A stretch of 50,469 bases of DNA from Halalkalicoccus subterraneus (GTDB lineage Archaea > Halobacteriota > Halobacteria > Halobacteriales > Halalkalicoccaceae): the NCBI RefSeq assembly GCF_003697815.1, contig NZ_RDQG01000037.1:1-50469 (forward strand). Direction: 5' to 3'. Positions 17,842 through 33,390 of the stretch are shown here, piece by piece. The first letter of the stretch is position 1. The number at the start of each line of letters is the position of its first letter. The notes below the pieces were generated by a model. The model saw only the letters and a list, made by a program, of their open reading frames with translations, did no database searches and was not told where the DNA came from. Both the position numbers and the translations under genes were made by a program.

Positions 17842-19623
17842 TCAGCCGACCGTTCGCAGGAAGGTCCCGATGAATCTGGCGAACGTCCGGCTACCGATCT
17901 CGGGATCGTCCCGAATCGGAATATCGAGTTTCCGCTTGAGCAGGTAATCGGTGAGCCGCCAGAGATTGTAGATCAACGTCGCGAACACGAAGTTCACGAA
18001 CCGGACGCAGTAGTCCATCGACGACGTTCGCGGCATGAAATCCTTGATCGCCTTGTATTCGATCTCGATGTCCCACCGACGCCGATACTTGTTCACCACG
18101 CTGTCCACCTCGTCCGTTTCGACTCGCTGATTCGTGGCGAACATCGCGTATTCCCCGTCCTCGTTCCGCGACGGGACGTAGATGATGTTCAGCTCGTGAC
18201 TTCGTTCGCCGTCGCTCGACTCCACGCCGTGTTCGACGGCGACGTTCGCTTCCGGATCCGATTCGAGATTGTCGAGGTATGGGATGTCTTGCTTGTACTC
18301 CTTTTTCGGCGTGATATACGTGACGTCGTGCTCATCGACCGTGTTGAACACGGCGTGACCGTAGAACTCGCGGTCGAACAGCACGGTATCGATATCGACG
18401 AACTCCTGAGCCTTCGTCAGCAGTCGATCAACGAGGTGGGCGAGTTCGTATGTCACCGCGTCTTCGGACTCCCAGCCGGAACATTCCTTGACGGGTTCGA
18501 CGCCAAGGATGATCGGGACGTTGTCGCCGACGAGGGTGATCGTCGCGTATTTGAACCCGTATCGAGCCTCCTTCGGACCACTCCCGTCGTCGTCATCGGC
18601 CTGCTTGTTGTCGCCTTTCAGGTATCCGCTCGCCATCTTCGGGAACGCCTCGTTCGGAATCCTTTCCTCACGATCTTCCCATGGCGGAACGTAGATCCGC
18701 TCGTAGGTCATGTCGATAGCGGCGATCGTCTCCCGGTCGGCGAACGGCGTGTCGCCGTTGATTGCCGAAATCGTGTTTCGCGTCGAGAGATCGAATGCGG
18801 TGACAGCTGCATCGCGGATTGCAGCGATGTCGGGCAGCTCTTCGGCGTCGGTCAGGTAGTCGTCGAGTCCCGCCTGTAGCGCTTCTTCCTTGGGCGTACC
18901 GAACTTTTTGATGGCTCTCAGGATGGTCTTTCCGTCGGGCGTGTAGTCGTCGTCGGTGAGCCACCCGATCTCCCCTTCGGAGTTGGCAGAGCCGGTAGTC
19001 GCGCACATCCGCGCCAGCACGTCGAATATCTCTTCGTCGAGATATTCCTTGTTGTCGGCTCGACTCGTCTCGAAGTGTGGAAGGACGGTCTGGCGCGCGA
19101 ACCGCACGGTCTGATGGGTGGCCTGACGCTTGCGCTCTCGTTTCGACGGCCCTTTGTCGGCATCATCGTCGGACTCCAGGAGGCTGGGTGCGAGTTCTTC
19201 GACGATGGCGTTGCGGTCGTCGGCTTCGCGTGCGATCGCCTCGGCAGCGATATCGAGCACTCGCTTGGTTTCGGGCGTGAATCGCTCGCTTTCGGTTTCC
19301 GAAAGCGTCTGCTGGCGTGGGACGCCGTCGGTGAACTCGAACCGAATCCGGAGATAGGGCTGTCGCTGTATTCGAGCGGTGACTGTTTCTTGCGAGAAGC
19401 CGCGCACGCGGCGGTAGAGGTACACCTTGATCATCTGCTCGAACCCGTATTTGCCCCGGTTCTCGTCATACGGGTCCTCGCCGATCGTCAGCGGGACCGT
19501 CGCGTTCGTGATCGCCCGACTGAGGTTGTCCACACCGTCGTCGAATTGTTCCTCGACACGCTCGATGAGCATCTCGACGGCCCGAGCGGCGAGGTTAGGA
19601 GGGGTTTCAGAGGATTCACTCAT
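17842..19623 (-). CDS. IS4-like DDE transposase (large haloarchaeal type), copy 1
   Basis: Starting at the ATG at 19623 (MSESSETPPNLAARAVEML) the protein has 593 residues; an upstream ATG at 19680 adds a non-acidic leader. The DDE triad is visible: D in AAIDMTYE, D in VLFDREFYG, and E in YRRRWDIEIEYKAIK, the exact Y-(2)-R-(3)-E-(6)-K signature of IS4-type transposases. It is intact and may be active. I could not identify terminal inverted repeats or a target duplication. It shares the same C-terminal core with the transposase at 37314. Confidence 0.82.
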   Translation of the reverse strand: MSESSETPPNLAARAVEMLIERVEEQFDDGVDNLSRAITNATVPLTIGEDPYDENRGKYGFEQMIKVYLYRRVRGFSQETVTARIQRQPYLRIRFEFTDGVPRQQTLSETESERFTPETKRVLDIAAEAIAREADDRNAIVEELAPSLLESDDDADKGPSKRERKRQATHQTVRFARQTVLPHFETSRADNKEYLDEEIFDVLARMCATTGSANSEGEIGWLTDDDYTPDGKTILRAIKKFGTPKEEALQAGLDDYLTDAEELPDIAAIRDAAVTAFDLSTRNTISAINGDTPFADRETIAAIDMTYERIYVPPWEDREERIPNEAFPKMASGYLKGDNKQADDDDGSGPKEARYGFKYATITLVGDNVPIILGVEPVKECSGWESEDAVTYELAHLVDRLLTKAQEFVDIDTVLFDREFYGHAVFNTVDEHDVTYITPKKEYKQDIPYLDNLESDPEANVAVEHGVESSDGERSHELNIIYVPSRNEDGEYAMFATNQRVETDEVDSVVNKYRRRWDIEIEYKAIKDFMPRTSSMDYCVRFVNFVFATLIYNLWRLTDYLLKRKLDIPIRDDPEIGSRTFARFIGTFLRTVG

Positions 19624-19990
19624 CCGTCGTGAGGCTCCCACACCGCTCGGCGGCGGTACTGTAACTCGTCGCGCTGGCACGGACGGTCAGGCGAGTGTGT
19701 TCAAAGGGGACGATGGCTCGTCCGCTCGACTGCTGTGAAAATTTGATCGGATGAGACGGGCGTGTGTTGGACGAGAGCTCGGGAGTGAGTGGCGTATCGG
19801 TCATGGTGGCGAGCGGGTGTTTTCGGCGATACTCGCGTGGTGGTCGGTACGAGGGCGAATCGTCGAGCACGACGGACTGAGACGCTCATCTGCGCCGCTG
19901 TCGTTGCATCGACGTATTGTTTAACTCGAACAACTGTGCGTATTCCTTCGTCACATATAAACCTTCGCAAACAGATGTTCGATTCAAACA
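19624..19990. other. intergenic upstream of transposase and wHTH gene
   Basis: About 370 bp that should include the 5' end of the IS element and the promoter of the wHTH gene. A TATA box (CATATAAA, about 19953-19960) lies 35 bp before the ATG at 19991. No terminal repeat was recognised. Confidence 0.4.
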
Positions 19991-27559: not shown

Positions 27560-27787
27560 CCGAGGTTCCAGAATCGTCTTGTCCAACGCAAACGAGACTC
27601 GTCCCTACCGCTTCCGTCCGTCCGCCACAGGTTGGGGGGAACTGTATGACTAAGAGGAGTAATCCCCGAACGATGAACAGGTGCGGGCGTGACCTACTAC
27701 CGGACTGTGAAGACGCCTCCTCAAGCGAGACCTACCGCGAACAGGGGGACTCGGGACTCGATTTTTCACGATCACGAAAACAGTCTA

Positions 27788-28731
27788 CGCTCATCCCGGT
27801 AGACCGTAACATCAATTCTGCTGGCGATCACATGGCGGTCAACGATGGACGAGGAGTCAGCTCAGGTCTTCCTTCCACCGCGTGAGCGATGCTTCGAGCG
27901 TCTCCGTCTCGCCCGATTCGGCGAGACGGTGACGTGTGTCCACTGCGAGAAAGATGCTGTCGTCAAGCGGGGTACGACCGGCAAAGACGCCCAGCAATAC
28001 TGGTGTAAGGCGTGCGAGACCTACTTCAACGACCTCACGAACACGATCTTCGGCCAGCATCGCTTCGGCCTCGAAGAGATGTTCTACACCGTCAAGGAGA
28101 TGCGATCTGAGCCGACTGCTCAGATCGCTCGGGACCTCGATCGAGACTACGAAGCTGTCCTCAACTTCGTCCACAAAGTCCAGGACGTGAGCGGTGAGAT
28201 CGACGAGTTCGACCTCTACGGCGTATGCGAAGCCGACGAGGTCTACGTCACAGCTGGTGAGAAAGGGCTCGAAGACGAGGACGGGAGTCCGCGCTCGCGC
28301 GGACTCTCAAAAAAGGACGCGGGACCTTCGCAGCAGACAAACCGCCAGTCTTGACACTCGTCCGTCGTTCCGACGGACGAGTTCGGTTTCTCGTCTGTAA
28401 GGATCTGCAAAACGCCGATGAAGATATCGCCGAGTACGGCGACGGAAGCGTGATCCTTTGCACCGACGGCTACACGATCTACGACGACATCGAGGACAAG
28501 GAGGGAGTGGACGGCCATCTGGCCGTCACTCACTCCGACACCTACGTCATTGGTGATGCTCACACGAACACTTGCGAGAACCGCCATAGCTTCCTTCGCC
28601 AGTGGCTGGCGAAGTTTAGAGGGGTCTCGAAGCACCATCTCCAGAAATACCTCGGCTTCCTCGGACTGAAACTCAACTCACCGAACGACTGGTTCGAGAA
28701 ACTGCTGTGTTACGATGTATCGGGATGAGCG
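27788..28731 (+). mobile_element. IS1595-family insertion sequence with 8-bp target duplication
   Basis: The element is 944 bp. Its ends are imperfect inverted repeats: CGCTCATCCCGGTAGACCGT at the left, and CGCTCATCCCGATACATCGT on the opposite strand at the right. The direct repeat ACAGTCTA flanks both sides exactly (27780-27787 and 28732-28739), the 8-bp duplication length usual for IS1595. Perfect flanking repeats suggest a recent insertion. The only gene is the transposase, which needs a -1 frame change. Confidence 0.85.
27845..28728 (+). CDS. IS1595-type transposase in two frames joined by a -1 shift
   Basis: Frame one (27845-28354) gives the zinc ribbon (CVHCEKDA ... YWCKACETYF) and the start of the ISXO2-like catalytic domain (CEADEVYV). 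The second frame, from about 28315 to 28728, gives GRGTFAADKPPVLTLVRRSD, then CTDGYTIYDDI and HTNTCENRHSFLRQW. The two join perfectly by a -1 shift at the heptamer A AAA AAG (28309-28315), which is in the zero frame. Either the gene uses programmed slippage or one A was lost from a run of seven. Without a shift the protein ends as 169 residues lacking the later catalytic residues. Confidence 0.75.
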
Positions 28732-28882
28732 ACAGTCTATCTCAACTACTGATGCTCTTACTCAATCTGGAGTCGTTCCTAACTATCCTCCAACAGTAGT
28801 CATCATAACGATTCACGAAGCATTTTATCCCCTGAACGATATTGTTGTCACCCACGAGACAGGATGGTCATGTAATCGTCAC

Positions 28883-32157: not shown

Positions 32158-33390
32158 GTGCGTGAAGCAGAGATGCACCTATACGGGCTTTCCCGGATGC
32201 CGCGCGGAGTGGTCTGCGGAAGTTTTGAACACTTGAGTGAAGAGGAGGATCACCACCGCTTCATTCCAGCGCAGTCTAACGATTCTTATGAGGTTCGTCG
32301 GTGTCCTAGGAGGGGTTCAAATGTTTCGCTGATCACTCCGCCCGTGCGGGTGCAGCGCTATCTGTGTCCGATCTGCAGTGGAACTTTCTCACCGAGCCTC
32401 TTGTACGTCGAAGACGGCCACAAGTATCCGTCCGAGGTCAAGCGATTAGGACGCGTCGTGAATGCGTTCACCGACGCGTCTCTCGAAAACCTCCAGGACA
32501 TCTGTACCGTTCACTTTGGTGTCCGTCCGTCCGATCAGCAGCTGTGTAACTGGATCACGGAAAATACGAGGGAGATCGTCGAGAACGATCTCCCGCAGTA
32601 TTCGGGTGTGTACACCTACGATGAGCAGTATCTCCGCATTGACGGTGAGCGTGCCTATCGATTCGTTCTCTACGACGATCTGATGGATGCGCCGGTCGGC
32701 GAATGCGTCGCCGACCGGCTTACCAAGGACGCCGTTCGTGACTTTCTCACGGAACTCCTTGACGACAAGCCCGCCTACGTAATCACCACCGACGGCCGTG
32801 ACGAGTACGCCGAGATCGTCGAAGACGACATCGGCGCGTTCCACCATCGGTGTCACTTTCATTTCCTGCGAAATGGTGAGAAGAAGCTCCGGAACGCCGT
32901 GTTCCGGAGCATCCGCCATTCGGACGCGGAGAAACTTCACGCTGCAATCGTCTGGAGCGAATTCAAGAGTGTATTCGCTGCTCCCTCGTATACAGCGGCT
33001 CTGCGGCGGTTCGAGGCAGTGCTCGACAAGGTCGAGCATCTGCCGTCAGCGATACGGACATACGTCGAGGAGGTGATGGAGAACTTCGACAAGTTCCTGG
33101 TGCATCTCCGGGATGAGTGGGTCCCGAGCACAACCAACAACTGTGAACGCTACTTCGGGCACACGAAACCGACGCTTCATCCGCGTCGGTTTCGTTCGAT
33201 CGAGGGCGCTCGCTCCTTCCTGAAGACGCAGATGACCGTGCGGACGGTCAAACACGGGTTGGTTTCCAGAGAGACATCGCTCGCGCTGGCGCGCGAGCTC
33301 TTTCCCGCCCTTGATTTGGACGAGGTAACGGACCTGTTCACGGAGACGAAGCAGCGCTATCTCTGGAGCCGCGATCTCGAAGCTGGCTGA
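32158..33390 (+). CDS. ISH6-type transposase
   Basis: The 410-residue protein has a Cys-rich N-terminal region (CPICSGTFSPS) and then NAFTDASLENLQDICTVHFG, a stretch I associate with ISH6 transposases. A DDE-like core follows: D in YDEQYLRIDGER, D in YVITTDGRDEYAEIV, and E in TNNCERYFGHTKP. The start codon is a GTG at 32158, and the true start may differ. The protein looks complete. I could not define the terminal repeats; the 330 bp upstream may be part of the element. Confidence 0.72.
   Translation: MREAEMHLYGLSRMPRGVVCGSFEHLSEEEDHHRFIPAQSNDSYEVRRCPRRGSNVSLITPPVRVQRYLCPICSGTFSPSLLYVEDGHKYPSEVKRLGRVVNAFTDASLENLQDICTVHFGVRPSDQQLCNWITENTREIVENDLPQYSGVYTYDEQYLRIDGERAYRFVLYDDLMDAPVGECVADRLTKDAVRDFLTELLDDKPAYVITTDGRDEYAEIVEDDIGAFHHRCHFHFLRNGEKKLRNAVFRSIRHSDAEKLHAAIVWSEFKSVFAAPSYTAALRRFEAVLDKVEHLPSAIRTYVEEVMENFDKFLVHLRDEWVPSTTNNCERYFGHTKPTLHPRRFRSIEGARSFLKTQMTVRTVKHGLVSRETSLALARELFPALDLDEVTDLFTETKQRYLWSRDLEAG

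Follow-up and report, generated by a model that had tools for sequence, protein, structure and literature searches.

A haloarchaeal IS1595-family transposase split across two frames, with a probable programmed -1 frame slip at a conserved A-rich site

The window, by which we mean the whole stretch of 50,469 nucleotides of Halalkalicoccus subterraneus DNA analysed here, contains a complete insertion sequence of the IS1595 family that resembles ISNpe28 and whose transposase gene is divided between two reading frames (Table 1). It is the only copy of this element in the draft genome. An earlier note on this DNA had described perfect 8-bp target duplications, and direct reading bears this out, with ACAGTCTA found intact on both sides; together with terminal inverted repeats of 24 bp each, which match at 88%, these are features of the IS1595 family. 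From its sequence, we consider the element to be mobile and probably functional.

Table 1. Features of the insertion sequence and its surroundings (positions in the window)
Feature	Position	Strand	Basis
Left target-site duplication ACAGTCTA	27780..27787	.	direct reading and TSD scan
Complete IS1595-family insertion sequence, ISNpe28-like	27788..28731	+	
Left terminal inverted repeat	27788..27811	+	
ORF1, zero frame, from ATG, 169 aa: Zn ribbon, helix-turn-helix region, first part of DDE domain	27845..28354	+	
Perfect 10-bp hairpin GAGTCCGCGC-TC-GCGCGGACTC, ending 2 nt before the slippery run	28285..28306	+	
Slippery site A_AAA_AAG (family motif A_AAA_ARG_G)	28309..28315	+	
ORF2, -1 frame: rest of DDE catalytic domain, reachable only after slip	28315..28728	+	
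Zero-frame TGA closing ORF1, overlapping the -1 frame codon TTG	28352..28354	+	
12-bp hairpin lying 40 nt past the slip site; conserved across most of the -1 copies	28356..28382	+	
Four other hairpins of the gene	27904-27929, 28102-28128, 28510-28527, 28594-28614		
Right terminal inverted repeat	28708..28731	+	
Right target-site duplication ACAGTCTA	28732..28739	.	direct reading and TSD scan

The A run of this element (28309-28314, followed by GG) is read in the zero frame as TCA AAA AAG GAC, which places A_AAA_AAG in phase with ORF1. From 28315 the -1 frame reads GGA CGC GGG and so on, and stays open for 137 aa until a TGA at 28726-28728. The earlier note had placed the meeting point of the two frames at this heptamer, as is seen directly in the sequence and its open reading frames, and had proposed that a -1 slip restores the DDE domain, with which the profile searches agree. 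The joined product is an IS1595-family transposase by both NCBIfam (NF033547, 129.3 bits, cut-off 75) and Pfam (PF12762, the ISXO2/IS1595-type DDE transposase, 48.5, cut-off 27), while the two halves separately reach 41 and 82 bits against the NCBIfam IS1595 model, and neither half on its own covers the DDE domain fully. ORF1 alone carries the IS1595 Zn ribbon (NF050000, IS1_IS1595_Zn, 33.5-35.2 bits, cut-off 28; the Zn ribbon model of Pfam, PF12760, scores under its cut-off), and the part after the slip alone is recognized as the ISXO2/IS1595 DDE domain by Pfam and NCBIfam. The transposase of IS1595 elements usually lies in a single ORF, which is not a strict criterion of the family; in the clade of the window element it is split, and in more distant relatives it occupies a single frame.

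Relatives were gathered from whole genomes, plasmids and GTDB contigs; a search of phages and viral contigs found none. We sorted 31 distinct close-clade copies with both halves open by the frame change needed to join them: 28 need the same -1 shift, two (L015 and L080) would need +1, and one (L092) is fused. Two of the 28 are doubtful, namely L070, left out of several counts for its aberrant ORF2, and the very divergent L028; moreover, the 28 copies are related by descent and hence do not represent 28 independent events. The clade is strongly supported in the tree and spans six GTDB families and about 16 haloarchaeal genera. Its members include complete plasmids of Halococcus dombrowskii, Natrinema pellirubrum, Natribaculum luteum, Halobaculum and Halorientalis, and a copy in Halobacterium salinarum DSM 3754 (L057). 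Two copies on complete H. dombrowskii plasmids are 99.4-99.7% identical to the window element and also have six As. The fully supported sister group in the tree consists of 20 single-frame haloarchaeal IS1595 relatives, which we take to be probably the ISH4-like group. These share the domain order and the GRG..DKPPV segment with the split elements (35-47% identity after the slip), but have one open frame of about 300 aa, in which the homologous stretch lacks the A run and SKR/STR is coded by CTCTCGAAACGT-like sequence. Because these distant relatives have one continuous frame, the split is best read, from the tree, as having arisen once, in the window clade, and as having been kept for long across its families and genera.

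The fused and +1 copies are singletons scattered across the tree, a pattern that fits occasional indels in the A run. L092, on a plasmid of Natrialbaceae archaeon AArc-T1-2, is a tip of the -1 clade in which the run has lost two bases net, leaving a single continuous frame; its gene is 885 nt long, its upstream stem is imperfect, and it offers a natural fused control. L080 (in G444) and L015 (in Halapricum hydrolyticum) are both A6GGG copies, and the perfect 8-bp duplication of L080 indicates that it moved recently or was moved by the transposase of another copy. A further candidate for the +1 arrangement, L016, was rejected, as its indel sits upstream in ORF1, away from the slip.

Could the window gene simply be broken, through the loss of one A from a run of seven (the competing explanation in the earlier note) or through a misread base, so that the split is without function? 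Homopolymer runs are prone to indels, and L015, L017, L023 and L024 do show indels at the slip region. However, nearly all open relatives have the -1 split, among them copies from complete genomes, members of multi-copy families and copies that moved recently; both frames are under selection (see below), and no copy among the relatives collected is a seven-A version of the window element in one continuous frame. We rejected a lost A or a sequencing error because other species have this split too, on complete plasmids, and we regard a broken gene as very improbable. Collecting the copies and counting their As, the check that had been suggested, thus favours a programmed reading. On this comparative evidence, we take the frame slip to be, almost certainly, a control built into the mobile element rather than the mark of a broken gene.

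An in-phase slippery site at the ORF overlap that is conserved in relatives, as expected of programmed -1 frameshifting, is present in this clade. In 13 aligned representatives, A_AAA_A, then R, then GG is invariant, giving A_AAA_ARG_G. The run has five, six, seven or eight As, the A-site codon is AAG or AGG, and the change at R is silent in the -1 frame (AAA or AAG, both Lys). The canonical heptamer A_AAA_AAG reported earlier is therefore present in phase in the window, but the conserved unit is looser, and the alignment suggests that the window heptamer is one version of this motif, with A_AAA as its constant part. The tRNA set of the host, with tRNA-Lys(UUU) for AAA, tRNA-Lys(CUU) for AAG and tRNA-Arg(CCU), would fit slippage of the UUU tRNA on AAA. 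In addition, the zero-frame TGA is kept by way of the -1 codons TTG, CTG or GTG, always followed by ACA (NTG-ACA in 27/27 of the -1 copies), so ORF1 ends uniformly.

Both halves evolve under purifying selection (dN/dS of 0.10 in ORF1 and 0.13 in ORF2). Of the differences within the 36-nt overlap, 55% are synonymous in the -1 frame vs 25% expected, and 13% are synonymous in the zero frame vs 21% expected. Taken together, dN/dS and the overlap test indicate selection on the joined product, as programmed -1 frameshifting would have it. The 12 codons right after the slip, which carry GRG..DKPPV, are conserved in the -1 frame, and none of the 27/27 -1 copies has an ATG, GTG or TTG ahead of them in that frame. 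With conservation in the -1 frame but no start codon ahead of it there, the 36-nt segment must, on this pattern of substitutions, be reached by crossing frames. These observations also bear on the idea that the element makes two cooperating proteins, with translation of ORF2 beginning afresh at the NTG overlapping the stop codon of ORF1 (NTGA). The invariance of NTG-ACA, and so of a TGA overlapping TTG, CTG or GTG, speaks for such a start, but CTG is a poor start codon, ATG is never used, the 12 codons between slip and NTG are homologous to those of the single-frame relatives, and a catalytic domain without GRG...DKPP would miss a conserved segment. Two separate proteins are therefore improbable in our judgment, and reinitiation at NTGA as the only route is disfavoured by the -1-frame constraint upstream of the NTG.

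The earlier note had argued that recent movement favours a functional element, and recent movement is also seen in many other copies. Perfect 8-bp duplications flank 26 of 52 distinct insertions, and the -1 arrangement is found in 23 of these 26. In some genomes, about 7-9 close or identical split copies occur within a single genome. By this count the split element is the form that moves.

It is very probable that some slip, by the ribosome or by the polymerase, is needed to make the transposase. Between the two, we favour the ribosome, and put at roughly 0.6 the probability that the full transposase would be made only via a programmed ribosomal -1 frameshift on A_AAA. Most ribosomes would translate ORF1, with the zinc ribbon, the DNA-binding part and the first catalytic Asp, and would terminate 13 codons past the slip, at the conserved TGA. 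A minority, with tRNA-Lys(UUU) on A_AAA, would slip back one base, decode the next AAA or AAG as Lys and go on in the -1 frame through the catalytic domain. The transposase would thereby be kept scarce, and the ORF1 protein left over could act as a regulator, by analogy with IS1 and IS3. Sequence comparison establishes the split and its upkeep among relatives, the selection on both frames and the recent movement of split copies; we infer that it is the ribosome that slips, how often it does so and what the ORF1 product does.

Except in two open copies, the frame change always goes the same way, the A_AAA phase is invariant, and the A5 variant, a poor substrate for polymerase slippage, occurs in a many-copy genome, all of which argue for the ribosome. 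On the other hand, most variants offer only the tetramer A_AAA, a weak site in E. coli (PMC4066793), and the two +1 copies, one of them with its perfect duplication, do not conform. The usual though not obligatory stimulators (a stem or pseudoknot 5-9 nt downstream, or a Shine-Dalgarno-like sequence upstream) also appear to be missing. A conserved stem 5-9 nt downstream, which the earlier note had suggested looking for, is absent from the folding profile; stems lie directly upstream and about 40 nt downstream instead, and the sequence immediately after the slip is less prone to fold than its synonymous recodings are (mean z between +1.2 and +1.7). No Shine-Dalgarno-like sequence was seen by eye at the usual distance upstream. 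Known ribosomal stimulators upstream of the site are rarely stems.

The upstream stem is of interest for a different mechanism, programmed transcriptional slippage, in which RNA polymerase would add a single A or G at the A(5-8)G(2-4) run, assisted by a nascent RNA hairpin abutting it, and the ribosome would then read a normal frame. Nearly all open -1 copies have a perfect stem whose end lies 0-2 nt from the start of the run, and in L028 two stem pairs are changed on both sides. The arrangement is like the stem next to T5C5 in a Roseiflexus IS630 element, which needs transcriptional slippage (PMC5009743), and in most variants the canonical ribosomal heptamer is missing and the A-site codons are poor for ribosomal slippage. 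An A-then-G run would also suit the required insertion, since a one-base backward realignment needs only an rG:dT wobble, and the opposite direction needed by two open copies is a pattern tied to slippage in transcription (PMC3711429). Against this, five or six As make a short run for polymerase slippage, the direction is almost constant, the Roseiflexus case is a deletion and not an insertion, and we found no open-licence paper that links archaeal RNA polymerase to such a mechanism. Furthermore, the gene has six such stems in all, and hairpins are equally abundant in transposase genes free of frameshifts. We therefore consider transcriptional slippage possible but unlikely, and somewhat more doubtful still its specific form in which the hairpin drives a programmed one-base insertion at A(5-8)G(2-4), as stem-loop-dependent slippage in the insertion direction in archaea.

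Counting perfect stems of at least 8 with loops of 2-8, and with expectations from synonymous recoding, the IS1595 transposase gene of the window holds six hairpins vs 0.2-0.5 expected, and the single-frame relatives also hold several. In two stretches of haloarchaeal plasmid, 102 hairpins vs 4.9 expected fall in 20 transposase genes (24.4 kb), which belong to many families, and 25 other genes of the same stretches (27.0 kb) hold 4 vs 4.2 expected; five E. coli transposase-type genes hold zero. While a stem directly upstream of the run is what transcriptional slippage would call for, such stems are general in haloarchaeal transposase genes, so the stem adjoining the slip is weak evidence for a frameshift role, and we rejected it as proof of a stimulator. 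Covariation in the stem is likewise weak, as both double changes come from L028 alone.

Hairpin-studded transposase loci include window positions 27904-28614 and 32158-33390, L229 and L230, and a DDE_Tnp_1/DUF772 transposase gene of 612 codons in the window (17845-19683, minus strand) has two perfect hairpins. This richness could come from selection on the structure of the RNA or the DNA, or else from mutation at palindromes. In hairpins h1-h4 of the -1 clade, the loops are exact reverse complements between copies while the arms are unchanged (CGACC/GGTCG, CGTTTC/GAAACG, CTC/GAG, GAA/TTC and TC/GA), the pattern that inversion or template switching at palindromes within a coding gene would produce. 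These inverted loops suggest that a mutational process acts at the palindromes, which weakens covariation arguments for the stem.

Experimentally supported -1 recoding in archaea is very sparse, and this clade provides a natural series of sites (A5, A6, A7 and A8, with AAG or AGG in the A site) for testing the rules of archaeal frame slips, as well as natural fused and +1 variants and many recent insertions. The clade also carries a warning for annotation: a broken frame in a haloarchaeal IS1595 gene need not mean a pseudogene.

Frameshifted transposases of insertion sequences are already known in bacteria (PMC4066793, PMC3711429), where A_AA.A_AA.G is among the commonest motifs (PMC4066793). 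As in IS1 and IS3, a DNA-binding ORF is joined to a catalytic ORF by a -1 slip on an A-rich site; in contrast to these bacterial systems, the window clade is archaeal, has no downstream stimulator in the usual place, and mostly has A_AAA followed by AGG. The Roseiflexus IS630 element shares a GC-rich stem directly upstream of a two-base run within the transposase gene, but there a one-base deletion at T5C5 by a bacterial polymerase was shown by experiment (PMC5009743). In archaea, part of a 2021 review of recoding gives -1 events at A-rich or G/A sites in Sulfolobus fucA and in haloviral tail genes, that is, in a cellular enzyme and a viral tail gene rather than an insertion sequence, and that part does not name insertion sequences (PMC8211752). 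Neither ISNpe28 nor frameshifting in haloarchaeal IS1595 elements was the subject of any paper that we found in the open-licence literature. ISNpe28 itself (N. pellirubrum pNATPE01, WP_015310310.1) is 84% identical in DNA to the window element over its whole length and has the same ends and the same -1 split, but its run is A7GGG and not A6GG. The RefSeq coding sequences of its group are 884 nt long (887 in Halorientalis), not a multiple of three, with one protein accession each; because such a length with a single protein implies a -1 join, the RefSeq lengths already imply a frameshift in this group, which is named there as ISNpe28.
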